IMG/VR virus record: IMGVR_UViG_3300042287_000342 | Span: 1-55,565 of that record | Direction: 5' to 3' (one strand) | DNA: 55,565 nt | DNA from: a virus | The notes under the pieces: model-generated | Told to the model about the DNA's origin: nothing | Database searches by the model: none | Seen by the model: only the letters and a program-made list of their open reading frames with translations | Program-made: the position numbers and the translations under genes | Part shown: positions 22,846-36,756 of the stretch, piece by piece | How the letters are laid out: the number at the start of each line of letters is the position of its first letter | Numbering within the stretch: position 1 is the first letter of the stretch

Positions 22846-23790
22846 ATGCCAGTAAATGACATTATCACCCAAGCAGAATACAACAATATCAGAAACAAAG
22901 TACTCGGAGTGCTCGGCACAGGATCGGGGAATTCTGGCTATGGACAACCCTTTGTCAGCACCGCGGTAGCAGAAGGAAATTCTATTACCATTAATGAGTA
23001 TGCTAATCTAAGATACGATATTTTCAGTGCTTATGTACATCAGGTAGGATCTAATCCTTCTACAGTTACCGTAGTAGAAGGTAACACGGTAAGATTTAGT
23101 GCTATAGATGCGCCAGTTACTACATACGATACACTAGCTAATACACTCATATCAAATAGATTTAATGTAGGAGCTGGACAATCAGCTATAAACATTCCCA
23201 CCGCACCTTCAAGTACTACCTGGCCTGGAATATATGGTGCAGATTGGTCTAGCCTTATACAGTGTACAGTGACTGCTACATGGCCTGATAGTAATCAAGC
23301 TAGATATTTTTGGAACAGTGGTGGTCAGATTCGATTTACAGCATCTCGTACCGGCACTACTCCTACTACTCAGAACACACAATGGACGTCTATTCTCAGC
23401 ACTGCTGGTACACAGACCTATGGCGGTAATAATCCTGGCACTGGTACTAGTCCCAATGATGGCCAAAACTGGTACAGATGCACCAACACTCGACAGTTGT
23501 GGTACAGTCAAAGCGGATCTAGTCCTTACGGATCTAATACCTATAAAATATATGCTAGAACTTTAGATGCAAGCAATAACTCTACAGGCACCGCTCGCCA
23601 AGGTGAATGGCACATAGAGTTTGTTGATAACTATACAGATCCAGGTGGCCCTGCTCCAGGAGATTCAGTAGACGGAACATTCACAGTATCAGTTAGTTTA
23701 CAATATGCTACAGGTATTTTGGTACCGCCAAGTCAGGGTAGTTTTACAGTAACATTGCCTACAGTTACTATTTCAGCTATAACACCTTAA
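22846..23790 (+). CDS. Virion structural protein, copy 2 of a tandem pair
   Basis: This 314-residue paralogue of the previous gene has the same order of segments: an N-terminal helical part (IITQAEYNNIRNKVLGVLG), a beta core with DSNQARYFWNSGGQIRFTAS, and a C-terminal GDSVDGTFTVSV. Compared with its partner it carries an aromatic insertion around NNPGTGTSPNDGQNWYRC and ends in a smooth beta segment. Divergence after duplication suggests two related virion components, possibly neighbouring subunits of one structure. The gene is preceded by a 35-base gap with a promoter-like element and followed by a strong inverted repeat. Confidence 0.72.
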   Translation: MPVNDIITQAEYNNIRNKVLGVLGTGSGNSGYGQPFVSTAVAEGNSITINEYANLRYDIFSAYVHQVGSNPSTVTVVEGNTVRFSAIDAPVTTYDTLANTLISNRFNVGAGQSAINIPTAPSSTTWPGIYGADWSSLIQCTVTATWPDSNQARYFWNSGGQIRFTASRTGTTPTTQNTQWTSILSTAGTQTYGGNNPGTGTSPNDGQNWYRCTNTRQLWYSQSGSSPYGSNTYKIYARTLDASNNSTGTARQGEWHIEFVDNYTDPGGPAPGDSVDGTFTVSVSLQYATGILVPPSQGSFTVTLPTVTISAITP

Positions 23791-23791
23791 T

Positions 23792-23844
23792 TTTTCCTTG
23801 AATCTCTAAGCCGCTAAATAAAGTGCGCAGATAATCAAGGAAAA
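23792..23844 (+). promoter_or_regulatory. 10-bp inverted repeat enclosing CTAAATAAA, candidate terminator or promoter
   Basis: TTTTCCTTGA (23792-23801) and TCAAGGAAAA (23835-23844) are perfect reverse complements with a 33-base loop. The loop carries GCTAAATAAAG, matching the TAAATA motif found in other gaps. The right arm also contains the AAGG that would serve as ribosome binding site for the gene at 23848. It separates the structural block from the glycosyltransferase/radical SAM operon. Confidence 0.5.
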
Positions 23845-23847
23845 TAC

Positions 23848-24198
23848 ATGAAGGATCAACTCAAAAAAGCTTTGGAGTTTGCTAATTACAGGCAGACGTT
23901 TTCAATTCAACGTAAGATTCTAAAAGAAAAAATCGCAGCCAAGTTAACACTAGGTTATAATGGTGGACTATTTCAAATTGACAGAACGCTTCTGACTTTT
24001 ATAGAAATGTTGCTAGTCAAAGGAAGAAGCAGCGGAGTTGTATTATTAGATACAAACGAAACCCCTATAATGATCGAGGATTTAGTTGCGTTTCGAGATG
24101 AATGCTTTGATAGGTATTTCGAAGCCACTAGTGAGTATTTTGAACAAGACCAAAATCTCAAAAAAAGTAGATCAGTAGAAAAATTGCTAGAACAATGA
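23848..24198 (+). CDS. Conserved small phage protein, first gene of the modification operon
   Basis: This 116-residue protein has a charged helical N-terminus (LKKALEFANYRQTFSIQRKIL), a central segment LGYNGGLFQIDRTLLTFIEML, and a C-terminal helix rich in Glu and Tyr (RDECFDRYFEATSEYFEQ). I recall similar short proteins from marine T4-like phages but know no function. There is no signal peptide or catalytic signature. The AAGG ribosome binding site sits in the arm of the upstream inverted repeat, so its translation could depend on that structure. Its stop codon overlaps the next start by four bases (ATGA), which ties it to the operon that follows. Confidence 0.7.
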   Translation: MKDQLKKALEFANYRQTFSIQRKILKEKIAAKLTLGYNGGLFQIDRTLLTFIEMLLVKGRSSGVVLLDTNETPIMIEDLVAFRDECFDRYFEATSEYFEQDQNLKKSRSVEKLLEQ

Positions 24199-25055
24199 AC
24201 AAAGGTATATTGATCTACGCTCATAATAATCGCACTGTGGACTATGCATTAATGGCGATTATTTCTGGAGGATTAGCTAAAAAATATCTTGGACAGCCTG
24301 CGTCGTTGGTTACTGACCAAGCCACGTTAGATTGGATGATAGAATCTAAGATATACACTCGTGCTCAAACAATTTTTGAAAATATTTTTATAGTTTCTAG
24401 ACCCGAGTCAACTAATTCTAGAGGGTTGTATGATGGCACAGAACGCAGTACAGTTCAATTTATGAACGGTAACAGAAATTCCGCCTACGACATTACTCCA
24501 TATCAACGAACACTTTTGATTGACGCAGACTTTCTGATATTTTCCAATAGACTGGCAGAATATTGGGACATAGATGATGATTTTATGATTGGCGAATCTA
24601 TTAATGATATCTATGACAATCAACGACTAGGATATCATGATAACTATGTTTCGGACGTAGGTATTAAATTGTATTGGGCTACTACTGTGATGTTCACAAA
24701 AAATGATAATTCAAAAATGTTTTTTGATCTTGTGCGCCATGTTAAGGATAACTATCAATACTATGCCGACACATACAGATTTGATTCAAAACAATACAGA
24801 AATGATATTGCATTTAGCGTGGCCAAACACGTATTAGCAGGATTTGAACAGTCACCATTGGGATGTTTACCGCCTGTGTTAACATCATTAGACAGAGATA
24901 TACTACACTCTGTAGATGCCGATAAATTAACGTTTCTGATATCCCCGAAATTAGATGAGAATTATTGTGCGGCTTCGATACAGAATATTGACATTCATAT
25001 AATGAATAAACAGAGTATAGTAAGACATAGCGATAAATTACTGGAGCTGATATGA
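24195..25055 (+). CDS. GT-A glycosyltransferase-like protein (GT8-like)
   Basis: This 286-residue protein opens with a nucleotide-sugar-binding type beta-alpha unit (GILIYAHNNRTVDYALMAI). It carries a DxD metal-binding motif at residues 110-112 in TLLIDADFLIFSNRL, as in glycogenin-like or capsule-type GT-A enzymes. A later YWATTVMFTKNDNSKMFFDL segment fits the acceptor-side region of this fold. It should transfer a sugar from a nucleotide sugar, but donor and acceptor are unknown. It begins with an ATGA overlap and ends with another to a second glycosyltransferase-like gene. The family is judged from motif and fold pattern only. Confidence 0.65.
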   Translation: MNKGILIYAHNNRTVDYALMAIISGGLAKKYLGQPASLVTDQATLDWMIESKIYTRAQTIFENIFIVSRPESTNSRGLYDGTERSTVQFMNGNRNSAYDITPYQRTLLIDADFLIFSNRLAEYWDIDDDFMIGESINDIYDNQRLGYHDNYVSDVGIKLYWATTVMFTKNDNSKMFFDLVRHVKDNYQYYADTYRFDSKQYRNDIAFSVAKHVLAGFEQSPLGCLPPVLTSLDRDILHSVDADKLTFLISPKLDENYCAASIQNIDIHIMNKQSIVRHSDKLLELI

Positions 25056-25891
25056 AATTCGGATATCTGTTAATAGTAGCAGAGAATGAATTTGTGGACT
25101 ATCTACAGTTAGCCTATGCCTTGGCTATCAGTATTAAAAATACACAAAAACCTGGGTTTGATCAAGTGGCACTAGTGATCAATGACAAGCAAAAACTTAA
25201 AGATTTAAACAGCAGTTGGGTCTTTGATCATGTTATAGAATGGAATCAAGAAACATTCTGGGATGGTCGTAGCTGGATGGATCAGTTGACACCTTTTGAC
25301 CACACAGTATGCTTAGATGTTGACATGCTGTTTATGCGTGACTACAGTCATTGGGTCGAATACTTTATTGAAAACAGCGAATTATATGTTGCTAACAAAA
25401 GCTACACCTATCGAGGAGAGATAGCTGTTGATCATCATTATCGAAAGACATTTATAAAAAACGATCTCCCTAATCTTTACAGCATGTATACCTTTTTTAA
25501 AAAAGATAGCGAAGCGGTTAAAGAATTTTTTGATCTAGGAAGATATATTATAAAAAATCCTATAGAATTTTCAAATATTTTTTTATCGGATCATAAACCT
25601 CGAGTTGTAGGTACAGATGAATCCTTTGCCTTGGCAGCTAAAATATTAGATATTACCGATGATATTGCATATCCTTTAGAGTTTCCCCGAGTTGTACATA
25701 TGAAACCTATGATACAGAATTGGCCATGGCCTGCTGATTGCTGGAGTGATCATGTAGGATTTTATCTAAATCAAAAAGGAAAACTAAAGATAGGAAATTA
25801 TCAACAACATGATATTGTTCATTATGTGGAAAAAGATAAAATTAACAAGGAAATGATCAATATTCTCGAGGAAGTTTTATGGAAGAAATAA
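25052..25891 (+). CDS. GT-A glycosyltransferase-like protein, second of the operon
   Basis: This 279-residue protein resembles the preceding one in layout. It has an N-terminal beta strand and helix (YLLIVAENEFVDYLQLAYAL) and a DxD motif at residues 89-91 in HTVCLDVDMLFMRD. A downstream segment with NLYSMYTFFKKDSEAVKEFF matches the YWATTVMF region of its neighbour. The C-terminal part is Trp/His-rich (MIQNWPWPADCWSDH). Two adjacent GT-A proteins with different active-site surroundings suggest stepwise sugar addition, though this is inference. It overlaps the next gene by 13 bases. Confidence 0.62.
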   Translation: MKFGYLLIVAENEFVDYLQLAYALAISIKNTQKPGFDQVALVINDKQKLKDLNSSWVFDHVIEWNQETFWDGRSWMDQLTPFDHTVCLDVDMLFMRDYSHWVEYFIENSELYVANKSYTYRGEIAVDHHYRKTFIKNDLPNLYSMYTFFKKDSEAVKEFFDLGRYIIKNPIEFSNIFLSDHKPRVVGTDESFALAAKILDITDDIAYPLEFPRVVHMKPMIQNWPWPADCWSDHVGFYLNQKGKLKIGNYQQHDIVHYVEKDKINKEMINILEEVLWKK

Positions 25892-26496
25892 TTGATTTTG
25901 ATAATTGGCTTGCAAATTTCAAATTACCTCCTGTAAAATTTGTTGCGGTTTTTAATCCCGACACCGGCGCAGTAGTTAGTGTAGGACCTAGTCATGCCTT
26001 TAAAGATCAAAAACACAAAATATCTATAGATAAAGAATTGGCAGAATCTATAATTAATGCAGAAATTAAAATTAACAACTGCATAGTTGATATAAATTCA
26101 AATACTTTAGAAGTAGCAGAAATAAAAAATACCTATAAGATAGACGATGTGCTGCATAGAATTATTTCTAAGAAAGATTCTGAAATAAAAAACCCAGATA
26201 TCTATATTAAATATGATTCAAAACTTAATACTTTTAAAATAGAAATGTCTTCAGAATTTGGGGGAACACGTAAGGCTAGGGCTGGGATAAAGAAAAGAAA
26301 TATTGTATGGGATGGTGACACTGAAATGCAATTTTTTATTACAGAATACAACGACCCAAACTTGCTTTTTGAAACAGTAAGTGTTACAATTAACGATCTT
26401 ACTGGAAACCATAAATTGATTACAGGTTTTAACTATCCTAAATTTAGTGTGTACACTAGACGCTTGTTTAAAAACTATATGATAGAATATAAATGA
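25879..26496 (+). CDS. Unrecognised protein within the glycosyltransferase cluster
   Basis: This 205-residue protein has no motif I recognise. The first third has FVAVFNPDTGAVVSVGPSHA, a beta hairpin pattern, followed by KISIDKELAESIINAEIKIN. The second half is beta-rich with a basic patch (GGTRKARAGIKKRN) and ends FSVYTRRLFKNYMIEYK. There is no signal peptide or membrane segment. It is coupled on both sides to glycosyltransferase-like genes, so it may be their acceptor or a partner subunit; nothing in the sequence proves this. Confidence 0.6.
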   Translation: MEEIIDFDNWLANFKLPPVKFVAVFNPDTGAVVSVGPSHAFKDQKHKISIDKELAESIINAEIKINNCIVDINSNTLEVAEIKNTYKIDDVLHRIISKKDSEIKNPDIYIKYDSKLNTFKIEMSSEFGGTRKARAGIKKRNIVWDGDTEMQFFITEYNDPNLLFETVSVTINDLTGNHKLITGFNYPKFSVYTRRLFKNYMIEYK

Positions 26497-27410
26497 AAAT
26501 TATTGAATTTGATGTTGTATTTTTAAGCTACGATGAACCTAATGCAGATCTACATTATGCAGATTTATGCAACAAAGTTCCTTGGGCTAAACGTGTACAC
26601 GGTGTCAAGGGATCTGATCATGCTCATAAAGCCGCAGCAGAAGCTAGCGAAACAGATTGGTTTATCACTGTTGATGCTGACAACATTGTAGATCCTAAGT
26701 TTTTTAATATTGACCTAGATATGAGTGATCCTAAGATTCAAGTCTACGGATGGTGCGGTCGAAATGTTATCAACGGCCTTCGATACGGCAATGGCGGTCT
26801 AAAAATTTGGAAAAAAGACTTTGTGCTTAATATGAAAACGCATGAAAACTCAGACAGCGATCGTGGACAGGTAGATTTCTGTTGGGAAGATGGATATCGA
26901 AATTTTCCTTTGAGTTTTAGCGATAGTGTTATTACTGGAAGTCCTTTTCAGGCCTGGAGAGCAGGGTTCCGTGAAGGTGTTAAAATGACCTTACTCGACG
27001 GAGTTAGGGTTCCAGCCCAAGAAATACAACAGAGAATATGGTGGCATAATATTCATAGGTTACGTATGTGGTCCACAGTTGGTAGCCATGAAGAAAACGG
27101 AATCTTTGCAGTTTATGGTGCAAGATTGGGAACCTGGATGGCTAATTGCACCAACTGGAATTATGTTGACGTTAGAGATTTTGAAATACTTAGAGGTATA
27201 TGGAATCAATACGGAAGACCATATGAAGAAGTTAATGGCGAAGGTCTCGTAGACGCAATAAAAGATCTTGGAGACAAAATAAAAATTAATTTAGGATTAG
27301 ATTGGCCTTGGTTAGATGAAAGTCAAAGTAAGTATACTTTAGATCTCTACAATGAAACTATGAATTTAAACGATACATATTTTAAAATGCCGGTACCTGC
27401 CAATGTATGA
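26493..27410 (+). CDS. Glycosyltransferase-like protein of a paired family
   Basis: This 305-residue protein starts with FDVVFLSYDEPNADLHYADL, then HGVKGSDHAHKAAAEAS, and a DxD motif at residues 61-63 in WFITVDADNIVDP. These features indicate a GT-A-type nucleotide-diphospho-sugar transferase fold. The segment NGLRYGNGGLKIWKKDFVL and the PFQAWRAGFREGVKM stretch recur in the C-terminal domain of the next gene, so the two are paralogues. Length is ordinary for a single-domain enzyme. It is joined to the unknown upstream gene by ATGA and overlaps the next by eight bases. Substrate unknown. Confidence 0.65.
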   Translation: MKIIEFDVVFLSYDEPNADLHYADLCNKVPWAKRVHGVKGSDHAHKAAAEASETDWFITVDADNIVDPKFFNIDLDMSDPKIQVYGWCGRNVINGLRYGNGGLKIWKKDFVLNMKTHENSDSDRGQVDFCWEDGYRNFPLSFSDSVITGSPFQAWRAGFREGVKMTLLDGVRVPAQEIQQRIWWHNIHRLRMWSTVGSHEENGIFAVYGARLGTWMANCTNWNYVDVRDFEILRGIWNQYGRPYEEVNGEGLVDAIKDLGDKIKINLGLDWPWLDESQSKYTLDLYNETMNLNDTYFKMPVPANV

Positions 27411-29070
27411 TATTTTTTATGTTTCTAAAACTGCAGGTAATGACAGTGACTGGGAATATATCAAGTCTAAATATCCCCTTGCGCATCGGTTAACCAACAT
27501 AAGATCTTTTGACGACATTAAAATTAATTCTTTCACTAAGATGTTTTGGGTCATCTGGGATGATATACATCTAATAGACACATTTGATCTAACAGAATAT
27601 AAAGCCACTAAGTGGGACGACATGTATGTTCACGTTTTTAAAAACGGAGAACATCACGATGGAGTATGTTTATTTCCTAAAGTATTGAACATCTCGCAAC
27701 GAGAGTTTTATCATAGATTTTTTACAGAAAAAAAAGAAATAGATATTTTAGCGAGCGTTCCTAAGAAATACAATGTATACTCACCTTCAAATTATGACGA
27801 GTATTTGTCTATTGATGATGAAATGTTTTGGTTAGTTTGGCCAGAAGTTGAAATTATAGACGAATCAGTTTTTAAATTGTATTTTAGTCATCATAATACC
27901 TACGATCGTAGAGAAAATCATATTTTTAAAAACACATGTAATAACGATGAATCGTATATGAGTGGAGTTATTCTCTGTAGTAAGTATAAACAAATTTCAT
28001 CTCGAGAGTTTGAAAAACAATATGTGATCGATAAAAAAGAACATGATATAATTGCGAGTAGATTTCGATATCCGACGTATGTTATTCACAGCTATGAACA
28101 ATATCTAGAAATTCTTAAAAATTTAAAAAATAAAATGTTTTGGGGTATATGGCCCGAAGTTGAAATAATTGACACAGAAATCTTTGATTTTTACTTCGAT
28201 CCCAACAATGGAACATACGACCATGATAGAAAAGAAAATCATACATTTAAACATCTGTTTAACAACACCGAAATTTATATTAACGGTGTAGTATTATTTT
28301 CTAAAGAAAAACAAATTAGTCAAAGAGAGTTTATTCATAGATTTTTGATTAATAAAAAAGAACACGATAGAATAGTATCAAAACATCGACTATATGATGT
28401 TGTGTTTATATCTTACAACGAATCTAATGCAGATGAAAATTACAATAAGTTACTTAATAAGTGTCCTAGAGCAAAAAGAATACACGGGGTTGAAGGTATA
28501 CATCAAGCACACATTGAAGCAGCATCTATTTGTAATACAGATATGATTTGGATAGTTGACGGAGATGCAATTATTGAAGATAGTTTTGATTTTGATATAG
28601 TTATGTCTAGTTATGATATTAATTGTGTACATGTGTGGCGTAGTCGTAATCCTATTAATGATTTAGAATATGGCAATGGCGGTGTTAAGTTATTGCCTAG
28701 AAAGTTAACATTAGATATGGACAAAACTACTCCGGATATGACAACAAGCATATCTAAAAAGTTTAAAGTCATGAATACTGTGTCAAATATTAATTCTTTT
28801 AATACTGACGAATTTACTACGTGGAGATCGGCATTTAGAGAATGCTGCAAATTAGCCAGTAGAGTAATTAAACGGCAATATGAAGACGAAACACAACAGC
28901 GATTAGATATTTGGTGCAGTGTAGGGAAAGATAAACAATACGGCGATTTTGCAATAATGGGTGCTAAAATGGGTAGACAATACGGATTAGATAATAAAAA
29001 TAATCCTGAAGCGTTGCAAAAGATTAATGATTTTAAATGGCTAAGGAATATATTTAATAATGCTTACTGA
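27403..29070 (+). CDS. Three-repeat protein fused to a glycosyltransferase-like domain
   Basis: This 555-residue protein has two parts. Residues ~45-325 are three copies of a ~100-residue repeat starting MFW.(I/V)W.(E/D)(V/I).(I/L)ID, encoded from 27541, 27823 and 28135, each with a later ENH.FK and IS.REF.....I.KKE motif. Residues ~327-555 repeat the preceding gene's domain (YDVVFISYNESNADENY, HGVEGIHQAHIEAA) with a D-G-D metal motif at 386-388 and YGNGGVKLLPRKL. The repeats probably form a recognition or multimer scaffold, but I know of no proven function. It overlaps the next gene by 11 bases. Confidence 0.68.
   Translation: MYDIFYVSKTAGNDSDWEYIKSKYPLAHRLTNIRSFDDIKINSFTKMFWVIWDDIHLIDTFDLTEYKATKWDDMYVHVFKNGEHHDGVCLFPKVLNISQREFYHRFFTEKKEIDILASVPKKYNVYSPSNYDEYLSIDDEMFWLVWPEVEIIDESVFKLYFSHHNTYDRRENHIFKNTCNNDESYMSGVILCSKYKQISSREFEKQYVIDKKEHDIIASRFRYPTYVIHSYEQYLEILKNLKNKMFWGIWPEVEIIDTEIFDFYFDPNNGTYDHDRKENHTFKHLFNNTEIYINGVVLFSKEKQISQREFIHRFLINKKEHDRIVSKHRLYDVVFISYNESNADENYNKLLNKCPRAKRIHGVEGIHQAHIEAASICNTDMIWIVDGDAIIEDSFDFDIVMSSYDINCVHVWRSRNPINDLEYGNGGVKLLPRKLTLDMDKTTPDMTTSISKKFKVMNTVSNINSFNTDEFTTWRSAFRECCKLASRVIKRQYEDETQQRLDIWCSVGKDKQYGDFAIMGAKMGRQYGLDNKNNPEALQKINDFKWLRNIFNNAY
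27541..28380 (+). repeat. Threefold protein-coding repeat (MFW.IWPEVEIID units)
   Basis: Repeat units begin at 27541, 27823 and 28135, spaced 282 and 312 bases. Copies two and three are much closer to each other than to copy one. Every copy keeps the opening MFW, the W.(E/D).E.ID strand, HIFKN-like and ISxREF motifs, so the reading frame has been held by selection. Confidence 0.8.
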
Positions 29071-30421
29071 AGAAAAAAAATACAAAAAAGTTATTGAAAT
29101 TTTAGATTCTGTTAGTCCGAGTTTTTGTCTAGCAAAATGGCATCAATTAACATTGTATCTACAAAATGGATTTAATCATAGCTGTCACCATCCTAGTCCT
29201 CATCAGGTGCCGTTGGAGGAACTAGCTGTAAATCATAAAGCGTTGCATAACACACAATTTAAAAAAAAGCAGATGCAAAAAATGTTAGATGGCGAGCGTC
29301 CTAGTGAATGTGATTATTGCTGGAAAGCAGAAGATGCAGGCAGAATAAGTGATCGTGTTTATAAGAGTGCATCGTCATGGGCAAAAATTAATTTTGATTC
29401 TGTAATAGAAAATAAAACAGCAGATGTTAATCCCGCTTATCTAGAAATTAGTTTTAGCAATGTTTGCAATTTTAAATGTGCTTATTGTAGTCCAGATTTA
29501 AGCAGCCAATGGTTTGAAGAAATTAAAACTCACGGCCCGTATCCAACATCATACAAATACAATAATTTTGATTGGTTTGAAAAAACAGGAAAAATGCCTA
29601 TTAAACATAGTGACTATAATCCTTATGTTGAAGCTTTTTGGAAATGGTGGCCTGAGTTATATAGAGATCTACATACCTTAAGATTGACCGGAGGTGAACC
29701 ATTATTAAGCAAAGATGCTTGGAAAATGATAGATTATATTGAGGACAATCCTAATAAAAATTTAGTGTTTGCTATCAATACTAACTTATGTGTACCTGAT
29801 GAGTTAGTTGATAAAATAATATCGAAGATACAAAATATTTCTATAGATACTAAAGAATTTCAGTTTTTTACCAGTGGTGAAGCACTAGGAGCTCCTGCTG
29901 AATATATCAGATATGGTCTTGATTACAACAAATGGTCTGCTAATCTAGAAAAAGTTTTAGATAACACAAATGTTATTGTTGCAATTATGACTACAGTTAA
30001 CTTAACCAGTGTAACTACCTATGCCGACTTTTTGAGATACATTTTAGATCTCAGAGGAAAATATAATAAAAACGCCGATTTTAATAAAGTTCAGTTCATG
30101 ACAAACTTTTTAAGATACCCTGAATTTTTATCTTTGACACTACTAGATCGAGAAACTAAAGCAACATTTACTCAAGATATCGAAACTCTAATAGCAGAGA
30201 GAGGTGTCTGGGACGGCTTTGCTACATTAACTTTTTCTGAAGTCGATCAACTACGGCGCATGCTAGATTATATGAATTCTTCAATAGATGATGACAAATT
30301 AACATTATTAAGAACGGATTTTAAATCGTTTGTTGACGAATATGACCGTAGACGAAATACTAATTTTAATCAAGTATTTCCTGAATTAACTAACTTTTAC
30401 AACCTATGCAACAAGACATAA
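29060..30421 (+). CDS. Radical SAM protein with N-terminal twitch-type cysteine cluster (1 of 4)
   Basis: This 453-residue protein carries the radical SAM signature CX3CX2C at C136, C140 and C143 (VCNFKCAYCSP), followed by a SAM-binding LTGGEPLLS near residue 212. Before the barrel are four more cysteines, at C23 (SFCLAKW), C42 (SCHHP) and C84/C87 (CDYCWK). These fit an auxiliary iron-sulfur cluster of the kind called SPASM or twitch, though placed N-terminally here. Such enzymes cleave SAM to start radical chemistry on peptides, sugars or nucleotides. The substrate is unknown. It is highly similar in layout to the next gene and coupled to the upstream glycosyltransferase by an 11-base overlap. 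Confidence 0.82.
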   Translation: MLTEEKKYKKVIEILDSVSPSFCLAKWHQLTLYLQNGFNHSCHHPSPHQVPLEELAVNHKALHNTQFKKKQMQKMLDGERPSECDYCWKAEDAGRISDRVYKSASSWAKINFDSVIENKTADVNPAYLEISFSNVCNFKCAYCSPDLSSQWFEEIKTHGPYPTSYKYNNFDWFEKTGKMPIKHSDYNPYVEAFWKWWPELYRDLHTLRLTGGEPLLSKDAWKMIDYIEDNPNKNLVFAINTNLCVPDELVDKIISKIQNISIDTKEFQFFTSGEALGAPAEYIRYGLDYNKWSANLEKVLDNTNVIVAIMTTVNLTSVTTYADFLRYILDLRGKYNKNADFNKVQFMTNFLRYPEFLSLTLLDRETKATFTQDIETLIAERGVWDGFATLTFSEVDQLRRMLDYMNSSIDDDKLTLLRTDFKSFVDEYDRRRNTNFNQVFPELTNFYNLCNKT

Positions 30422-31734
30422 GAAAAACAATAGAGCTCATCAACGATATCAGTCCTAGTTTTTGTGCGGCCAAATGGTATAATGCCACTATCTGGTTAGG
30501 GAATGGTCGCACCGCCAGTTGCCATTTGCCTCCGGCGCACAGTATTCCCTTAGAAGAAATTAAAAATAATCCAAGTGCTTTACATAATACGACATTTAAA
30601 AAACATCGAAGACTAGAAATGATTCAAGGCAAAAGATGCAAAGAATGTGCATACTGCTGGACTGTAGAAGATAATGCTTCTCCTGATGTATACAGTGATC
30701 GTGTCTATAAGACCAGGATTTATCAAGAAAACGAAATATTGCAATTAGCCAGACTTGATCCTCAAGCAGATATTGATCCTAAAACATTAGAAATTAGTTT
30801 TGATAATTTATGTAATTTAAGTTGCAGTTATTGTAATTCAGAATTCAGCACAACCTGGGCCAGCGATATTAAACTTAATGGCCCGTATACTGAATTAAAG
30901 ACTCAGGGCGGTGGTGCATTTCAAAATTCAGGTGAACATGCATTGCCCTATGGCATTAAGAATGAAAATAATCCCTATATAGAAGCTTTTTTTAAATGGT
31001 TTCATGCTAGCCTTAAAAACAATTTACAAGAGCTTAGAATTACCGGAGGGGAACCTACACGAAGTCCTTGGTTTTGGAAATTATTAGACGAATGCAAAGA
31101 TACAAAATTTGATTTTGCAGTTAACAGTAATCTTATAATGGACCAAAATAAACTTGCACAACTCATTGATGCTAGTAAAAAATTTAAAAAGTTTGATTTA
31201 TACACCAGCGGAGAGGGCTATGGCGCTCACGGTGAGTTTATTAGATGGGGATTAGATTATAGTTTATGGAGAAAAAATTTAATTCAGTTTGCTCAAGAAG
31301 GCAAATACAGTATGATCCATGTAATGATGACTATTAGTGCTTTGAGCATTTGGTCAATAACTGAATTCATGACAGATATGCTAGAATTAAGAAAACAATT
31401 TGGTGGTCATCAATTCCACATGAGTCTTAATTTAGTGAGATTTCCTAGCTTTCAAAATTTGAATGTGTTGCCGATAGATCTAAAACAAATCCAGGTAAAT
31501 AAAATCGAAACGTGGCTCAGTGATGCTGTTGGGTTAAGTTCATCCGAACAAAATCAAATAGAAAGAATCGTTGAGTATCTTAAAAATGTTGATCGCAGTC
31601 AAGAAGACACAGATAGCCAAGAAAATAAACAGCATGATTTAAAAAAATTTACACAACAATATGCTGATAGAAAAAATGTTGATCTCTCAACAGTATTTCC
31701 AAAAGAATTCACACAATGGTTTAACACAATATGA
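30406..31734 (+). CDS. Radical SAM protein with N-terminal cysteine cluster (2 of 4)
   Basis: This 442-residue protein is the closest paralogue of the preceding gene. It has the same N-terminal cysteines (C20 in SFCAAKW, C39 in SCHLP, C78/C81/C84 in CKECAYCW), the radical SAM triad at C136, C140 and C143 (LCNLSCSYCNS) and RITGGEPTRSP for SAM binding. Both share a DLYTSGEGYGA.GE(F/Y)IR.GLDY motif that may line the active site. The C-terminal ~60 residues are Gln- and Lys-rich. It overlaps the previous gene by 16 bases and the next by four, so one transcript makes all four radical SAM enzymes. Confidence 0.82.
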   Translation: MQQDIRKTIELINDISPSFCAAKWYNATIWLGNGRTASCHLPPAHSIPLEEIKNNPSALHNTTFKKHRRLEMIQGKRCKECAYCWTVEDNASPDVYSDRVYKTRIYQENEILQLARLDPQADIDPKTLEISFDNLCNLSCSYCNSEFSTTWASDIKLNGPYTELKTQGGGAFQNSGEHALPYGIKNENNPYIEAFFKWFHASLKNNLQELRITGGEPTRSPWFWKLLDECKDTKFDFAVNSNLIMDQNKLAQLIDASKKFKKFDLYTSGEGYGAHGEFIRWGLDYSLWRKNLIQFAQEGKYSMIHVMMTISALSIWSITEFMTDMLELRKQFGGHQFHMSLNLVRFPSFQNLNVLPIDLKQIQVNKIETWLSDAVGLSSSEQNQIERIVEYLKNVDRSQEDTDSQENKQHDLKKFTQQYADRKNVDLSTVFPKEFTQWFNTI

Positions 31735-32945
31735 ACGAAGATAAATTCTGTATAATACCTTGGATACACCTTAACACAGAACCCAATGGGCGTGTTAAAC
31801 CGTGTTGTGCATATTTTGGAGAAGAGTCGGGAAATTTAAAAAATACTACACTAGAAGAAATATGGAATAACGAACATACTAAATCTATGCGTAGAAGCTT
31901 TTTAGAAAATAAAATCCCAGAAGGATGTCTAACCTGTACTAAAAAAGAAAGCAGTGGCGGAGTAAGCTACCGGATGGCAGTCACTGAAAGATTCAGTCAT
32001 CATATCGAAAAAGCTAAAAGTAATACATTGCCCGATGGTACCTATGAAACATTTGAAATAATTTTTTGGGATTTTAGATTTAGTAATATCTGTAACTTTA
32101 AATGCCGTATGTGTGGCCCCGGCGCAAGCAGTTCTTGGTACGACGATTTTAGTCCGGAAGAAAAGAAAACTAACATAAAATTCTTAGACAGTTCTTACTA
32201 TGGAACTGATTTAATGAAATATGTTGACCAGTTTATCGATAGTGTTGAAGAAATTTATTTTGCAGGCGGTGAACCGTTGCTTATGGCTGAACATTATCAA
32301 ATATTAGATAAGTTAATTTCTAAAGAACGCTATGATGTATTTTTAAGATACAACACCAACATGAGTACTATTAAGTATAAAGACTATGACTTAATCAACA
32401 TATGGAAAAGATTTAAGAGCGTGAAAATATTTGCCAGTATTGACGGTATAGAAGAAAACGCAGAATACAGCAGATCAGGCACGGACTGGCCAAAGGTAGA
32501 AGAAAATTTAAAAAAACTGGTAAACTCTAAAGTTGACTACGTTGTATCTAGTACTATAAACATCTTTAATGTTTTTAATTTTACACACTTAGTAGACAGA
32601 CTAATAGAATTAAAAATGTCAACTAGAAAGATGTTAGTAAGTCATGTTAACTGGCCTCATTACTACATGACTTCAATTCTGCCGGAAGATATAAAGGATA
32701 AAATAAGATTACAGTTAGACGAACACCTAGAAAAAATAACCCCAACAATTACAGAAGAAGAAAGTAGGTGGCTTGGTAACTTATACAACGAGATTAAATT
32801 TTATCTAATACCTACAACTTCACCAGAAGAAACTGTTAAATTGCGGAAAAAATTTAAGTATGATACTGTTAAATTAGATAGTATCAGAAAAGAAGATATT
32901 AGAATCGCTGCGCCCGAATTAGCTGAATGGTTTGATACATTATGA
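31731..32945 (+). CDS. Radical SAM protein with N-terminal cysteine cluster (3 of 4)
   Basis: This 404-residue protein opens with FCIIPWIHLNTEPNG and the cysteines C7, C25/C26, C66 and C69, an N-terminal iron-sulfur cluster pattern. The radical SAM motif is CNFKCRMCGP (C121, C125, C128), followed by YFAGGEPLLMAEHY. The segment IFASIDGIEENAEYSRSGTDW is typical of radical SAM enzymes of the SPASM branch. It differs from the first two of the set in its shorter linker between the N-terminal cluster and the barrel. Starts with ATGA overlap. It may act on a different substrate or act after the first two enzymes; this cannot be decided from sequence. Confidence 0.82.
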   Translation: MNEDKFCIIPWIHLNTEPNGRVKPCCAYFGEESGNLKNTTLEEIWNNEHTKSMRRSFLENKIPEGCLTCTKKESSGGVSYRMAVTERFSHHIEKAKSNTLPDGTYETFEIIFWDFRFSNICNFKCRMCGPGASSSWYDDFSPEEKKTNIKFLDSSYYGTDLMKYVDQFIDSVEEIYFAGGEPLLMAEHYQILDKLISKERYDVFLRYNTNMSTIKYKDYDLINIWKRFKSVKIFASIDGIEENAEYSRSGTDWPKVEENLKKLVNSKVDYVVSSTINIFNVFNFTHLVDRLIELKMSTRKMLVSHVNWPHYYMTSILPEDIKDKIRLQLDEHLEKITPTITEEESRWLGNLYNEIKFYLIPTTSPEETVKLRKKFKYDTVKLDSIRKEDIRIAAPELAEWFDTL

Positions 32946-34150
32946 ACGATAAATTTATTTGCGACTTTCCCTGGGTGCATCTAAGTGTGTTTCCACAAGG
33001 TAATTGTACAATTTGTTGTGTAGCCAAACATTCCGGAAAAGGTAACGGGCATTCATGGAATCGTATTAGCGAAGATAAAACTAAAACTGTTACAGTAATG
33101 AATAGCACAGTTTCAGAAATCATTAACTGTGATAATTACAGGGCAATTAGATTAGATATGCTTGCTGGAAAAGTTCCGACAGCATGCGAAGGATGTCACC
33201 AGGTAGAGCAAGCAGGCGGCAGAAGTAAGCGACAATTAGAAACTAATCGAAATTTAGATCATGCGGCATTAACTGCCGATGATGGAGCTATCAAATCAGA
33301 CTTACGACACATAGAACTACGCCTAGGCAACTTTTGTAATCTGAAATGTCGAAGCTGCAATGCAGATTCTAGCACAAGTTGGATTCAAGACTATTATAAA
33401 CTTAAAGATACAGTAAAGTTAGCCAGCGGTTATCATTGGATTAAAAGCAATCCCGAATTTAGCTTTGACTGGGTCGATGATGAATCGTTTTACGACCAGT
33501 TAACAGAGCTAGCACCTAATCTTGAACAAATACATATCAGTGGCGGCGAACCATTTTTAGTGCCTACGCATTTTAAATTGTTAGAAAAACTTGTTCGCGA
33601 AGGCAAGACTGATATTGCTATACACTATCATACCAATTTGAATTACAAGTGGGAGAAAATTACTCCGGCATTAGACCTGCTTACACAATTCAAAGAAGTA
33701 CATATTAATTTTAGTATCGACGATGTAGAAGAACGAAATACTTATATTAGAAGTTTAAGTGATTGGAATTTAACTATAAGTAATTTAAAATTATTTCTAA
33801 CACACTACAATTTCATTTTTGCTGTTACTCAAACTGTAAGTGTATATAACTTTATGTATGTAGAAGAATTAACACAATATCTTAAAGAAAACAATATTTA
33901 CATTAAAGTGCGTTTGAATCATGTGCAGAGTCCGGATTACTTAGATGCTAATGTATTGCCTAAGCAAGTACGCCAAGATAAGATTAATTCGTTACAAGGA
34001 ATTGTCATTCCCCGTATATGGGAAGATTTATACGGTCATTATTACAATCCGGAAGCTAACGGCCAGTGGGATTATTTTAAATACTTTACTGAAAAAATCG
34101 ACGCAGTACGTAACGAAAACTTAAATGATATTTTTCCAAAACTTGCATGA
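32942..34150 (+). CDS. Radical SAM protein with N-terminal cysteine cluster (4 of 4)
   Basis: This 402-residue protein pairs with the third enzyme. It has N-terminal cysteines C7, C22/C25/C26, C82 and C85, then the radical SAM motif at C132, C136 and C139 (FCNLKCRSCN). It has IHISGGEPFLVPTHF and the NFSIDDVEERNTYIRS segment that matches the third protein's SIDGIEENAEYSRS. The ATGA junctions on both sides imply translation from a shared message. The fact that four non-identical members are kept intact argues against simple redundancy. Confidence 0.82.
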   Translation: MNDKFICDFPWVHLSVFPQGNCTICCVAKHSGKGNGHSWNRISEDKTKTVTVMNSTVSEIINCDNYRAIRLDMLAGKVPTACEGCHQVEQAGGRSKRQLETNRNLDHAALTADDGAIKSDLRHIELRLGNFCNLKCRSCNADSSTSWIQDYYKLKDTVKLASGYHWIKSNPEFSFDWVDDESFYDQLTELAPNLEQIHISGGEPFLVPTHFKLLEKLVREGKTDIAIHYHTNLNYKWEKITPALDLLTQFKEVHINFSIDDVEERNTYIRSLSDWNLTISNLKLFLTHYNFIFAVTQTVSVYNFMYVEELTQYLKENNIYIKVRLNHVQSPDYLDANVLPKQVRQDKINSLQGIVIPRIWEDLYGHYYNPEANGQWDYFKYFTEKIDAVRNENLNDIFPKLA

Positions 34151-34947
34151 AATTTATTTTTTTAAAAACTGGTGATTATTTAGACCTAGAGCCTAATAAT
34201 ACTCCTATTGCGTCTGCGTGGTTTGATTATATTTTTTCTAAGCAGATGAATATGAGTTATTTTGCTAGAGATGCATTGTTTGTAACTCGAACTAATGACA
34301 CTATTAAAGATCTAAATTCCGCAATCGATATTGTACATCAATTTGCTATAGAAAAGAACTTGCCCCAACTTATTTTTAATAAAATTATTGACCTTGACCA
34401 ATCATGGCTTAATGCTTCTCATAAAAAGTGGGTAAAATACACACACGAATTAAAAAACATTGTTAACGGCGACGATACAAAACAACACTATCCTGCCGTT
34501 GTAAAATCTTGGCAAAACATTAATCTGTTTATCCATTCGTTAGAAAACTATTACTCGGCTTATTTTACTAATACTAAAGGCGCATATCTAGAAGACGTCA
34601 AAGTCAATATAAGACCAGAAGATTGCGAGTACGCACAACATGACTTAATTCTAAGATTTGACGATTTAGGTAAACACCAATACGATCAATGGTTGACAGG
34701 CAGTAGTGTTGACTGGGAAACTAGTAACTACAAGACAATATCGGCGAGATTTGAATACGCATATAATCCGCAAACAATTAAAGGATTACAGCCAAATCAA
34801 GATTATATTAACTGGTGTTCTAAAAACAACTTACAAGCAATGCCGCCGTTTATTATTTTAGGAAATTTTAAAAAGAATAGATGGGACGTTAAACAACTTA
34901 TGCATCAAAATCTATCGAAAGGATTAGAAGTAGGATTTGAGTTATGA
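34147..34947 (+). CDS. Unrecognised protein between radical SAM and SGNH genes
   Basis: This 266-residue protein shows no motif I recognise. It starts with a short beta strand (KFIFLKTGDYLDLEPNN), continues with a long helical part containing many Asn, Tyr and His residues (SWQNINLFIHSLENYYSAYF), and has a beta C-terminal section (NIRPEDCEYAQHDLILRFDDLG). No cysteines are clustered and no membrane segment is present. It is coupled by ATGA at both ends, so it is made together with the radical SAM enzymes and may be their substrate carrier or accessory protein; this is only inference. Confidence 0.6.
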   Translation: MKFIFLKTGDYLDLEPNNTPIASAWFDYIFSKQMNMSYFARDALFVTRTNDTIKDLNSAIDIVHQFAIEKNLPQLIFNKIIDLDQSWLNASHKKWVKYTHELKNIVNGDDTKQHYPAVVKSWQNINLFIHSLENYYSAYFTNTKGAYLEDVKVNIRPEDCEYAQHDLILRFDDLGKHQYDQWLTGSSVDWETSNYKTISARFEYAYNPQTIKGLQPNQDYINWCSKNNLQAMPPFIILGNFKKNRWDVKQLMHQNLSKGLEVGFEL

Positions 34948-35789
34948 AGATATATGTAAACGGTGATAGTTTCACCGACGGTGACGGTCTAGCTGATGCA
35001 GAAACATTCCCGGGCATGTACCCGGGACATCATCATGCAGATGGAAATCTAATTGTAGATCGCCGGTGGTCAAATGCTCGGCACGATATACTGTCAAATG
35101 ACTTGTCATTATGGGACACATATCGTAATAATAATCGGAAATATGTTTGGGCAACAATATTAGGAGAGCTTGTTGGTGCTAGTGTGGTTAATAATGCCGT
35201 TGGTGGTTCTTGTATGATGGGAATTGCAACTAGGACTATTGCAGATCTTAGCTCAATACACCTACGTGCAAATTTGCCAGACTACGTCTTTATAGGATTA
35301 ACAATGTCTGATCGTCTAGGATGGTACGATAAAGAACATACAGAAAACAATCATACAGGAAGTTGGGTTAAAACAGCTATACCCGCATTCAGCGAAAGAA
35401 TGTTACCCGAACACTATAAAAAGATGTTCATGGCTACATGGGCAACACTGTCTGACGAAGAATTGCTTATAAATTATCTAAAAGAATGTTTACAAATTAA
35501 AAATTATGTTAAGCGAAGAATTGGCCGAGATCCTATTTTTTTAAATACCTCATACCAATTTTGGGAGTATAAAAATATAGTTCAATCATCTAAAAATCAA
35601 TGGCTTAGAATGCTTTGGTTCGAGTTATTAGAATTTGATAAGATTAACCCCCAATGGTTTAATTCTGGATCGTTTGACATTGTAACAGCTTGTGGACATG
35701 CTATTCCGGAAGTTCATTCTCAATTTGCAAGAGATATAGCTAGAGAACACTTTGGTTGGGGCAAAAGTCCGGTTGACAAAGATGCCTAG
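34944..35789 (+). CDS. SGNH hydrolase-like protein (1 of 2)
   Basis: This 281-residue protein has a block I motif GDSFTDG at residues 7-13, with Ser9 as probable nucleophile. A block II-like NNAVGGSC lies near residue 82, and a C-terminal CGHAIPEVHSQFA is in the place of the block V His. SGNH enzymes remove acyl groups from sugars or lipids, which would fit a glycan-modifying operon. The usual Asp before the catalytic His is not obvious, so activity is uncertain. The last residues read KSPVDKDA, a tail that recurs in the next gene. A GC-rich 7-bp inverted repeat (35008-35027) lies within the coding region. Confidence 0.6.
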   Translation: MKIYVNGDSFTDGDGLADAETFPGMYPGHHHADGNLIVDRRWSNARHDILSNDLSLWDTYRNNNRKYVWATILGELVGASVVNNAVGGSCMMGIATRTIADLSSIHLRANLPDYVFIGLTMSDRLGWYDKEHTENNHTGSWVKTAIPAFSERMLPEHYKKMFMATWATLSDEELLINYLKECLQIKNYVKRRIGRDPIFLNTSYQFWEYKNIVQSSKNQWLRMLWFELLEFDKINPQWFNSGSFDIVTACGHAIPEVHSQFARDIAREHFGWGKSPVDKDA

Positions 35790-36678
35790 AATTTTTCTTC
35801 CAACAGTTAACGAATATCGAGAAATAAATCGCATTGTAGCATTTGGGTGTAGCCAAACCGCAGGCTCAGAACTTCTTGATTCAAAAAGATATCCAAACAT
35901 TCCTGATGTAGAATTAAAAAAACACAGCCTAGGAATAGAAGGATGGCACAAATATTCAGAGAATGAATCAAATCTGCCGTTACATTTTAAAATACAAGAC
36001 GAAGAACGTATGTTAGCGTGGCCTGCACAACTAGCAAAACTTTATAACATTCCTATTCATAACTATGCCGAGCCAGCAACTGGCAATGAGCAACAGATGG
36101 CACAATTCTTAAAAGCAAAATCTGAAGGTGTTATTAGTAACGACACACTAGTGCTCTGGGGATTTACTAGTATGAATCGAGGCTTTTGGATTGACCAAGA
36201 ACAAGGATGTTCATATTATCTGCTCGGTAATAACAAGATCTTTAAACAACCCGTTGACATAAACATGTTTAATGAAAAACTGTGGTATAACGGTATAAAT
36301 TCAGATTATATGTTAGCATGGAGATATTATCAAAGTTTATCTACTATCTTCCATTGGGCTAACGAAATATGTAACGAACAGTTTTTATTCATTCAGGCAT
36401 TACATTATTCACCAAGTTACGAACAATGGTCTGCTAAAATAGAAGGTCCAGTAAATCCAACGGTCGAGCTGTTAATGCAAAGATTTTGGGATACTATAAA
36501 ATACAATTACGAAATAAAATACCCAATTTTTAAAGATTTTGAGCAGACAAATCTGTTCACTTGGAGTAAAAGTATTGGCGGTCGACTAGGGTGCGGGCAT
36601 CCAACATTAGATGCACATGAAAAATATGCACTTTTAATTAAAAATGAGCTTGACCGGTTAGAACAAGAGTCCAGTTGA
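35782..36678 (+). CDS. SGNH hydrolase-like protein (2 of 2), possible C-terminal frameshift
   Basis: This 298-residue protein starts at ATG 35782, overlapping the previous stop; the in-frame TTG at 35752 is less likely. Block I reads FGCSQTAG, keeping Ser but with Cys in place of Asp. AEPATGNEQ resembles block II, and CGHPTLDAHEKYA holds the C-terminal His. The annotated frame ends EQESS-stop. Shifting one base at that point gives KSPVDKDAE-stop, nearly the same tail as the preceding paralogue, with its TGA overlapping an ATG in the operon's usual ATGA style. The frame may have been broken recently near 36662, or the read may hold an indel. Confidence 0.62.
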   Translation: MPRIFLPTVNEYREINRIVAFGCSQTAGSELLDSKRYPNIPDVELKKHSLGIEGWHKYSENESNLPLHFKIQDEERMLAWPAQLAKLYNIPIHNYAEPATGNEQQMAQFLKAKSEGVISNDTLVLWGFTSMNRGFWIDQEQGCSYYLLGNNKIFKQPVDINMFNEKLWYNGINSDYMLAWRYYQSLSTIFHWANEICNEQFLFIQALHYSPSYEQWSAKIEGPVNPTVELLMQRFWDTIKYNYEIKYPIFKDFEQTNLFTWSKSIGGRLGCGHPTLDAHEKYALLIKNELDRLEQESS

Positions 36679-36690
36679 CAAAGACGCAGA

Positions 36691-36756
36691 ATGATTACAA
36701 ATGCGTATCATTTTCCGTTGGATGAAGTCAATTACTTACATGAGACTGAATTTTAA
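36691..36756 (+). CDS. Tiny ORF after the second SGNH gene, possible remnant
   Basis: A 21-codon ORF (starts MITNAYHFPLDE, ends HETEF) begins at an ATG that would overlap the shifted-frame stop of the preceding gene as ATGA. It has no recognised motif. It could be a short peptide or the leftover start of a deleted gene. It ends 12 bases before the convergent opposite-strand gene. Confidence 0.3.
   Translation: MITNAYHFPLDEVNYLHETEF

Follow-up and report, generated by a model that had tools for sequence, protein, structure and literature searches.

A conserved chain of glycosyltransferase-like, radical SAM and SGNH-like genes behind phage tail fibres: a candidate cassette for a late-made virion glycan

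The 55,565-nt stretch of viral DNA analysed here (the window) carries, behind its tail-fibre genes, a chain of overlapping genes for glycosyltransferase-like, radical SAM and SGNH-like proteins, and among metagenomic viral loci this gene set recurs in at least 185 non-redundant groups. The reading that we prefer, and to which we give about an even chance, is that of a late-expressed phage cassette that builds a glycan and tailors it, the most likely acceptor being a virion protein produced alongside, i.e. c0 or a neighbouring fibre protein. Gene order, gene families, the conservation of a leader motif and hairpin, and the presence of a late sigma factor family were all computed here.

Twelve + strand ORFs account for the whole of 24195-36678 and, as the original prediction had it, they form an uninterrupted series: All 11 junctions overlap, by 4, 13, 4, 8, 11, 16, 4, 4, 4, 4, and 38 bases, the last of which shrinks to 8 bases if the in-frame ATG at 35782 is taken as the start of SG2. 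The chain, counted from ORFs of at least 80 aa, has a thirteenth member at its 5' end, where the gene at 23848-24198 (s23848, 116 aa) shares 4 bases with the one at 24195; the leader lies upstream of s23848 and not of 24195. Profile and alignment analysis bore out the anticipated mix of sugar transfer, radical chemistry and SGNH proteins, with four glycosyltransferase-like proteins, four radical SAM proteins (rSAMs) of one family and two SGNH-like proteins, although part of the glycosyltransferase calls rest on weak or indirect matches and the SGNH-like pair scores below the Pfam cut-offs. No membrane-like segment was detected in the 13 chain proteins by Kyte–Doolittle analysis over 19 residues (highest value 1.36). 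GC content within the block is 31–36% in 2-kb windows and about 40–42% in its immediate flanks; AT-richness is not unique to the block, as parts of the first 12 kb are down to 36% GC. The features are, all on the + strand:

21914..22810, +: c0 family, first copy; 298 aa, Ser/Thr-rich (S+T 24%), candidate virion protein and candidate acceptor
22846..23790, +: c0 family, second copy; 314 aa, directly 5' of the chain
23792..23844, +: leader hairpin; its 3' arm holds the Shine–Dalgarno-like AAGGA (23837-23841)
23815..23820, +: TAAATA, T4-late-promoter-like; sits at the hairpin loop, 33 nt 5' of the ATG
23848..24198, +: s23848; 116 aa, conserved first gene of the chain, one Cys
24195..25055, +: GT_A; GT8-like glycosyltransferase by weak evidence, D110 and D112 invariant
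25052..25891, +: GT_B; GT8/glycogenin-like glycosyltransferase
25879..26496, +: U1; conserved two-domain protein, a small alpha/beta part followed by a beta-rich part
26493..27410, +: GT_C; GT2-like glycosyltransferase, D61 and D63 invariant
27403..29070, +: GT_D; glycosyltransferase domain at aa 331-553, preceded by three degenerate repeats
29060..30421, +: rS1; N-terminal-twitch radical SAM, NF033640 347.8 bits
30406..31734, +: rS2; N-terminal-twitch radical SAM, NF033640 282.6 bits, CxxxCxxC at 136
31731..32945, +: rS3; N-terminal-twitch radical SAM, NF033640 380 bits, CxxxCxxC at 121
32942..34150, +: rS4; N-terminal-twitch radical SAM, NF033640 334.6 bits, CxxxCxxC at 132
34147..34947, +: U2; perhaps distantly related to the rSAM-associated c14 family
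34944..35789, +: SG1; SGNH-like enzyme, either a hydrolase or an acyltransferase
35752..36678, +: SG2; SGNH-like as well, probably starting at 35782

The comparison set comprised 185 non-redundant groups of viral loci, and adjacency fractions refer to judgeable groups only. The order is near-invariant: The tail fibre is followed by c0, s23848, GT_A, GT_B, U1 or a short protein (c13), and GT_C, with the rSAMs downstream. Adjacency holds for c0 and s23848 in 124 of 127 groups, for s23848 and GT_A in 133 of 134, and for GT_A and GT_B in 150 of 151, while the succession of GT_B, U1 or c13, and GT_C is kept in 139 of 155. The set is thus kept next to the fibre genes of other phages, which was a check proposed with the original prediction; in new loci selected by c0, s23848-GT_A-GT_B continues in 69/71. 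Where GT_C-selected groups extend 4.5 kb or more downstream, a radical SAM gene lies there in 36 of 36, and the rS1-type is the first rSAM after the glycosyltransferase block in 108 of 145 groups. The contrary picture of scattered, unlinked genes does not apply to the glycosyltransferase block, which stays linked, and applies in part to the rSAMs: They occur without any gene of that block in 18 of 83 rSAM-selected groups, as judged from the stretches analysed, some of which are short, and relative to GT_C they are all on the opposite strand in 6 of 141 groups and on mixed strands in 4. Neighbouring genes in relatives encode, among others, carbamoyltransferases, UDP-sugar dehydrogenases and DegT-type aminotransferases. 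A Bacteroidetes contig has a twitch rSAM gene clustered with carbamoyltransferase, SGNH-like, glycosyltransferase, epimerase and UDP-sugar dehydrogenase genes; of the 80 bacterial loci that contain a relative of the twitch rSAMs, however, only 4 have the carbamoyltransferase and 7 the SGNH family.

The single promoter-like element originally placed before the chain has to be redefined. Sigma-70-type promoters are at chance level between 22500 and 37300 (69 sites; shuffled sequence gives 66.2 on average, sd 8.8), whereas a T4-late-type TAAATA is present in the leader of s23848. The consensus octamer of T4 late promoters is TATAAATA; the window carries GCTAAATA, which contains the TAAATA core and falls short of the full octamer. 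TAAATA occurs in 102 of 128 s23848 leaders (11.7 expected from single-base shuffles), at 31–35 nt before the ATG in 78 of these 102, and in 38 of 80 fibre leaders. At internal starts it was counted in 0/137 cases for GT_A, 0/152 for GT_B, 1/115 for U1 and 3/154 for GT_C, and at the starts of GT_D and the rSAMs in 9/128 and 11/163, respectively.

The window's leader folds with −20.9 kcal/mol (z −4.10), and the mean hairpin z-score is −3.29 in 60 relatives, whereas four sets of control leaders average between −0.24 and +0.28. Moreover, the two arms co-vary, as an arm-swap test gave a total of −809.0 for the leaders' own arms versus −507.7 (sd 21.8) for permuted ones, with 25 of 63 leaders in the best 5% and 12 failing to beat the mean swap; RNAalifold on an ordinary alignment returned zero consensus pairs. 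An unpaired motif together with a Shine–Dalgarno sequence located mainly in the 3' arm was observed in 45 of 60 s23848, 20 of 51 fibre and 9 of 60 c0 leaders. Because fibre and c0 leaders show this arrangement as well, the count alone is non-specific, and it is the stability z-scores that separate the leader sets. The gp55 family (phrog_234, partial matches) was detected in 10 of 12 chosen records and 0 of 14 controls, including all 10 chosen records of at least 113 kb, one of which is a 280-kb record with the same locus; it is absent from the 55-kb window and a 32-kb record, both of which are far shorter. Taken from the sequence, TAAATA, hairpin and gp55 family point to late rather than early expression, the latter of which would have spoken against a link to virion assembly. 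T4 gene e, with its late promoter and a hairpin that hides the ribosome binding site (RBS), provides a precedent for such a switch (PMC3014915, PMC2988022). Seven leaders of inverted or glycosyltransferase-less rSAM blocks have 160 nt visible: TAAATA lies 10 nt 5' of the start in L031 and about 130 nt before it in L007 and L012, and is missing from four, among them L016, whose stretch is without the glycosyltransferase block. Late co-expression of the rSAMs is therefore not universal.

Regarding the enzymes themselves, the GT_B profile retrieves glycogenin-1 chains (best E 2.3e-6), which marks GT_B as GT8/glycogenin-like; its DxD is located at position 89, and D91 of this motif is invariant. 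For the GT_A profile, glycogenin chains are the sole matches and are weak (E 0.23 and above). GT_C, which has at least 596 relatives in viral contigs, and GT_D have a glycosyltransferase domain in common, which in the Pfam GT2 comparison (PF00535, PF13704, PF13641; cut-offs 23.3, 27.5, 27) remains below the cut-offs with 12.5 and 13.4 bits for GT_C and 13.2 bits for GT_D. The first GT_D repeat reaches 40.5 bits against the GT_D domain profile, its DxD aligning with WDD; repeats 2 and 3 score 4.1 and 5.0 bits, yet they share 37–49% identity with the other repeats.

All four rSAMs exceed the curated cut-off of 170 bits of NCBIfam NF033640 (N_Twi_rSAM) and have kept the CxxxCxxC motif. Four N-terminal cysteines (C7, C26, C66, and C69 in rS3 numbering) are invariant in 12 aligned sequences and, judging by this pattern, may bind an auxiliary cluster. 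In SG1, Ser9 and His252, which we take to be the block I serine and the block V histidine of SGNH proteins, are invariant in five aligned sequences; a counterpart of the block V Asp is not apparent. Against the Pfam GDSL models PF13472 and PF00657, SG1 scores 15.9 and 15.1 bits (cut-offs 32.9 and 23.6), and SG2 has no Pfam match; both resemble the recurrent neighbour family c3 (hhalign E 1.5e-18 for SG1 and 7.8e-31 for SG2). In the nearer relatives (L007-, L012- and L018-type), SG2 gave no tblastn match and was not seen at this place.

The original suggestion that U1 or U2 could be the carrier or substrate was not borne out. The place between GT_B and GT_C is regularly taken by U1 or c13, and U1 is modelled as a two-domain protein (AlphaFold2, mean pLDDT 83.5, pTM 0.60) with an N-terminal part that resembles c13 (hhalign E 2.4e-5, probability 75%). 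U2 is confined to near relatives (17 loci in the U2 scan); its alignment with c14 is collinear with 11 invariant columns, but hhalign gives E 0.015 and a probability of 3%. We consider c0 the better acceptor candidate. The S+T content of the c0 family averages 25% versus 9–13% in the cassette families, and the window's two copies align with 41% identity; neither PHROG nor Pfam profiles match the first at E 0.1, and a tblastn search of 50,697 phage records with the second gave no hit at E 1e-3.

In the mechanism that we propose, which is our interpretation as regards the late timing, the acceptor, the role of the adaptors and all of the chemistry, read-through transcripts from upstream would fold the leader hairpin and thus be poorly translated. 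A gp55-type sigma factor would start transcription inside the hairpin, leaving the RBS free, and the coupled chain would then be produced together with the virion. The GT8-like GT_A and GT_B and the GT2-like GT_C and GT_D would transfer sugars in the cytoplasm, with U1 and s23848 possibly serving as adaptors that guide them to the acceptor, while the twitch radical SAM enzymes might modify the sugars (or acceptor residues) and the SGNH proteins might add or remove acyl groups. Surface modification, be it of the virion or of the host, would be the presumed outcome. More speculatively, and in our view rather doubtful in its full extent, a widespread class of mostly uncultivated phages might decorate c0 as a dedicated virion adhesin with a glycan remodelled by twitch rSAMs, SGNH proteins and, in relatives, carbamoyltransferases, with the degenerate half-glycosyltransferase repeats of GT_D as scaffold or ruler and the promoter-in-hairpin switch limiting the pathway to virion assembly. 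A literature search found no account of a radical-chemistry glycan pathway for virus particles.

The same enzymes could instead remodel the host surface, where a late change of LPS or O-chain would keep progeny off debris or bar rival phages. The authors of the pelagimyophage study read the glycosyltransferases of host-recognition clusters as modifying the host O-chain, and GT8, the commonest family there (PMC7029224), is represented here by GT_B and, weakly, by GT_A; furthermore, a twitch rSAM gene was found within a bacterial cluster of the polysaccharide type. This makes host remodelling conceivable, but we consider it improbable: The 13 chain proteins lack membrane-like segments, no flippase, polymerase or lipid-carrier transferase was recognised among them, the chain is tightly linked to c0 and the fibres, and a late switch would fit virion assembly better than the exclusion of rivals.

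We deem it unlikely that the twitch rSAMs tailor a virion polypeptide by introducing cross-links, epimerised or thioether residues, with the glycosyltransferases decorating the same peptide, although orphan SPASM/twitch rSAM gene clusters have yielded new enzyme functions, e.g. spliceotides (PMC11002830). While CxxxCxxC in 4/4 rSAMs and the four invariant N-terminal cysteines would suit such chemistry, the end-to-end overlapping chain holds no precursor-like small gene among ORFs of at least 80 aa, its only short gene being s23848 with a single Cys, and both its wealth of glycosyltransferases and the carbamoyltransferase, UDP-sugar dehydrogenase and DegT-type aminotransferase neighbours in relatives speak against this reading. 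Mixtures of rSAMs, carbamoyltransferases and glycosyltransferases also suit natural-product pathways, and QueE and GTP cyclohydrolase family genes are present elsewhere in the phage. A diffusible small molecule or a nucleic-acid modification as the product nevertheless appears very unlikely, given the strict placement behind fibres and c0; moreover, the genes of the QueE and GTP cyclohydrolase families are not part of the chain and run on the other strand.

If the acceptor of the preferred virion glycan is indeed an adhesin, host recognition would be tied to a phage-made glycan with radical-SAM-tailored sugars, and the many radical SAM genes of aquatic phages that are still unexplained would gain a purpose. 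The set recurs in metagenomic loci, yet tblastn finds no counterpart of six of its proteins in 50,697 deposited phage records, so that a strategy common among phages may have escaped culture. The leader switch predicts late-only translation, and c0 provides a defined candidate for the question of the glycan acceptor.

The closest precedent is the host-recognition cluster of pelagimyophages, likewise a hypervariable region with tail fibres, several glycosyltransferases and radical SAM cassettes; compared by gene content, the fixed gene order, the c0, s23848 and U1 families and the leader switch are unnamed in the relevant parts of that account (PMC7029224). A large T4-like TARA genome has 12 radical SAM genes, which are treated there under Fe–S cluster metabolism and not as a fibre-linked glycosyltransferase cassette (PMC5332604). 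Moraphages, compared by description, are large phages of aquatic habitats whose core glycosyltransferases form four groups, and for which virion glycosylation is considered by the authors; in contrast to our case, their predicted hosts are mostly Bacteroidota and "radical SAM" occurs 0 times in the main text (PMC12619734). Mycobacteriophages carry glycans on capsid and tail-tube subunits (Freeman et al. 2023, cited in PMC12619734), but these are other phages, and neither radical SAM nor SGNH genes figure in the account as cited there. For KVP40 and K566, both Vibrio phages, the rS3 profile matches 3 and 4 genes, respectively, in the stretches examined; these are without the GT_A, GT_B, GT_C, U1, s23848 and c0 families, and the rSAMs lie near NAD-salvage genes. 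The leader, finally, resembles those of T4 gene e and I-TevI, where a late-promoter-like motif is placed such that late transcripts would lose the 5' arm of the RBS-hiding hairpin, while for T4 soc and 49 the likeness is confined to the hidden RBS; the T4 cases described control lysozyme, a capsid protein, a nuclease and homing endonucleases, whereas the putative switch described here heads a 13-gene enzyme chain (PMC3014915, PMC2988022).

The original prediction of twelve coupled genes was borne out: 24195–36678 is filled by twelve genes on the + strand with overlaps at 11 of 11 junctions, and a thirteenth gene extends the chain upstream by a 4-base overlap with the first of the twelve. The features are as follows:

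21914–22810 and 22846–23790, two genes of the Ser/Thr-rich protein family c0, between the tail fibre (c1) and the chain

23848–24198, + strand, s23848 (family s), first gene of the chain

24195–36678, + strand, in order: GT_A, GT_B, U1, GT_C and GT_D, four radical SAM proteins (rS1–rS4), U2, and the SGNH-like SG1 and SG2

The 55,565-base virus record shares this locus with the 280-kb record L006, in which protein identity is 100% over the chain and the compared neighbours. It carries a DNA polymerase gene (phrog_262, 52654–55317), and its protein encoded at 49964–51502 is 40% identical to a protein of PA5oct-like Pseudomonas jumbo phages. A single open reading frame of 4,244 aa (32–12766) precedes the collar and fibre genes. 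Separate from the chain and both on the − strand are genes for a QueE-like radical SAM protein (phrog_2076, 41092–41946) and a GTP cyclohydrolase (phrog_2197, 45156–45905), which may form a deazaguanine DNA-modification set. In phage records, a DNA-level search with 15000–39000 gave no match. Eight proteins were used as tblastn queries against these records: GT_D had no match at E 1e-5, U1 and U2 none at E 0.01, and GT_C, c0 and GT_B none at E 1e-3, while rS1 and rS3 matched Vibrio phages only (~22–26% identity).

For a comparative analysis of gene order, we scanned viral contigs with family profiles, which returned at least 583 relatives for radical SAM and at least 596 for GT_C, and only 17 loci for U2. 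The best 80 loci were kept per scan, for radical SAM, GT_C and c0 among the matches listed, so that the relatives nearest to the window are over-represented. The resulting 264 loci formed 185 groups at 95% DNA identity, and adjacency was counted wherever it could be judged. The proposed check of conservation beside fibre genes in other phages came out in support: c0 follows the fibre in 98 of 99 groups, s follows c0 in 124 of 127, GT_A follows s in 133 of 134, and GT_B follows GT_A in 150 of 151. Thereafter, U1 or its short counterpart c13 and then GT_C come next in 139 of the 155 GT_B-bearing groups, three of which end at GT_B. The c0 scan, which selects for neither glycosyltransferase nor radical SAM genes, contributed 71 new loci among its best 80, and s–GT_A–GT_B follows c0 in 69 of them; in one exception the contig ends after s, in the other a radical SAM gene stands between c0 and s. 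Three contigs binned as Rickettsiales MAGs (L276, L284, L299) also carry fibre–c0–s–GT_A–GT_B and are probably phage contigs.

Downstream, a radical SAM gene is present in all 36 of the GT_C-selected groups that have 4.5 kb or more of downstream sequence, and the first gene after the glycosyltransferase block is of the rS1 type in 108 of 145 groups. The partners in the 81 groups where 7 kb or more follow GT_C, a set that includes radical SAM-selected loci and whose radical SAM count is partly due to selection, are SGNH (57), the further family c2 (54), GT_D (52), c14 or U2 (32) and carbamoyltransferase (26). Unlinked occurrence, which would have spoken against a common system, thus receives a divided answer: the glycosyltransferase block is strictly ordered, but 18 of 83 radical SAM-selected groups lack any gene of this block in the stretch examined. 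In several lineages, including L007, L154, L181 and L200, the radical SAM and glycosyltransferase blocks run on opposite strands; L007 and L012 are near relatives of the window with such an inversion. For this reason, we rejected the notion of one late operon everywhere.

The promoter expected before the chain was not recovered as a sigma-70-type element, for which a scan gave nothing above chance. Instead, 102 of 128 s23848 leaders have TAAATA within the 80 nt before the gene (11.7 expected), and in 78 of the 102 it lies 31–35 nt before the ATG. Counting one gene per family per group, with expectations from single-base shuffles, the motif is likewise enriched before fibre genes (38/80, 9.8 expected), mildly enriched at scattered positions before c0 (21/108, 9.9 expected), at chance before SGNH genes (12/72, 10.7 expected) and rarer than expected before GT_A, GT_B, U1, GT_C, GT_D and the radical SAM genes. 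Of seven leaders of inverted radical SAM blocks, one has a close TAAATA (L031, 10 nt upstream of the start).

The s23848 leader is moreover predicted to fold into a hairpin that would bury the ribosome-binding site, with z −4.10 in the window. Across 60 non-redundant motif-bearing leaders the mean fold z is −3.29, with z below −2 in 43, versus +0.28 for fibre, −0.12 for c0, +0.09 for GT_A and −0.24 for radical SAM leaders; s23848 and fibre leaders were pre-filtered for TAAATA, made non-redundant at 80% and limited to 60 (51 fibres), and the other three sets were taken without this pre-filter. In 45/60 s23848, 20/51 fibre and 9/60 c0 leaders, TAAATA is mostly unpaired and most of the Shine-Dalgarno (SD) region lies in a 3′ arm; because this placement also occurs in the latter two, the specific sign is hairpin stability. 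RNAalifold on a MAFFT alignment of 20 s23848 leaders gave 0 consensus pairs, in our opinion because the position of one arm against the other varies, and shuffles and an arm-swap test were run besides. Foreign 5′ arms weaken the fold: over 63 leaders the own total is −809.0 versus −507.7 for permuted arms (sd 21.8), which is a permutation figure rather than a phylogeny-corrected probability; 51 leaders fold more stably than the mean of their swaps, and 25 are among the best 5%. Rfam gave no match in 23000–37500 at gathering thresholds. A gp55-type late sigma family is encoded in 10 of 12 hand-picked records, three or four of them near relatives (behind L014, L020 and L023, with L006 more distant); these ten are all the records of at least 113 kb, and 0 of 14 control genomes encode it. 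These sequence signs suggest that the cassette would be expressed late.

Among the glycosyltransferase-like proteins, GT_A and GT_B have no Pfam match, and GT_C and GT_D stay below the Pfam GT2 cut-offs; the profile built from GT_B relatives hits glycogenin-1 (E 2.3e-6), the GT_A profile matches glycogenin weakly (E 0.23), and GT_A has the two invariant Asp of a DxD. GT_C and the related C-terminal part of GT_D have an invariant DxD in common. Profile searches of the PDB with GT_C, radical SAM and c0 gave no useful match. Residues 1–330 of GT_D (27403–28392) appear as a degenerate array of half-glycosyltransferase repeats, cut by us into three of ~105 aa: in a two-sequence search with the GT_D domain profile, repeat 1 reaches 40.5 bits, with WDD aligned to the DxD, and repeats 2 and 3 only 4.1 and 5.0 bits; the latter two share 49% identity, and each is 37–38% identical to repeat 1. 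Since 140 GT_D relatives, some cut by contig ends, show several length peaks from ~200 to >750 aa, we read the repeat number as variable between phages.

All four radical SAM proteins exceed the cut-off of NF033640 (twitch domain-containing radical SAM), keep CxxxCxxC and have four invariant N-terminal cysteines in common; the 346,856-base record G005 (behind L057) holds 21 matches to the twitch family, 16 over the cut-off. SG1 and SG2 are related to c3, an SGNH-like family that recurs among the neighbours (hhalign E 1.5e-18 for SG1 and 7.8e-31 for SG2). The N-terminal part of U1 is related to c13 (E 2.4e-5, probability 75%), which stands in its place in other cassettes. We assign no fold to U1, because Foldseek found no PDB match at E ≤ 0.001 and the best Z in VIA-align was 4.9; three BFVD matches reached E ≤ 0.001, two of them called uncharacterised and the third without a name. 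U2 aligns end to end, with 11 invariant columns, to c14, a family found beside radical SAM genes in other phages; with hhalign at E 0.015 and 3% probability, we dropped firm membership and grade the kinship as possible. The same comparison was null for c2 with c14, c2 with U2, U2 with c20 (a further family) and c0 with c1. The U2 model (mean pLDDT 62; best Z 9.2, to a designed protein) was set aside as resembling common helical arrangements only. We set aside the suggestion that U1 or U2 is the carrier, of which neither the sequences nor the models, that of U2 being poor, give any sign.

Most simply, the cassette would be a late pathway in the cytoplasm for building and tailoring a glycan on a virion protein, with the radical SAM step as a putative tailoring of the glycan. 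Hydropathy shows no membrane-like segment in any of the chain proteins. The prime acceptor candidate is c0, whose family has the highest Ser+Thr content (mean 25%, versus 9–13% in cassette families and 20% in fibres). The main rival is that the cassette enzymes act on the host surface, a role put forward for pelagimyophages (PMC7029224), whose clusters resemble the cassette in gene content. Regarding the chemistry, single proteins examined among phage-cassette neighbours belong to the carbamoyltransferase, UDP-glucose dehydrogenase, B12-type radical SAM, 2OG-Fe(II) oxygenase and DegT aminotransferase families. Two Bacteroidetes contigs have carbamoyltransferase- and SGNH-family genes after a twitch radical SAM gene, and in the contig examined further Pfam also identifies UbiA, group 1 glycosyltransferase, epimerase and UDP-glucose dehydrogenase families; such loci are a minority, as among the best 80 bacterial ones four have the carbamoyltransferase and seven the SGNH family. 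Neither this bacterial context nor the kinship of U2 and c14 carries the reading of a virion glycan pathway.

Phage glycosyltransferase clusters next to fibre genes are known, as are radical SAM genes in phages, each by itself and in combination (PMC7029224, PMC5332604). Our searches of the open-licence PMC literature turned up no account of this cassette's fixed gene order, of degenerate half-glycosyltransferase repeats, or of a promoter-in-hairpin leader at such a cassette. The predicted fold of the s23848 leader resembles the arrangement of T4 gene e and I-TevI reviewed in PMC3014915 and PMC2988022: in the longer, early transcripts of these genes a hairpin conceals the ribosome-binding site, the 5′ part of this hairpin is absent from late transcripts, and soc and 49 are also named for a hidden ribosome-binding site.
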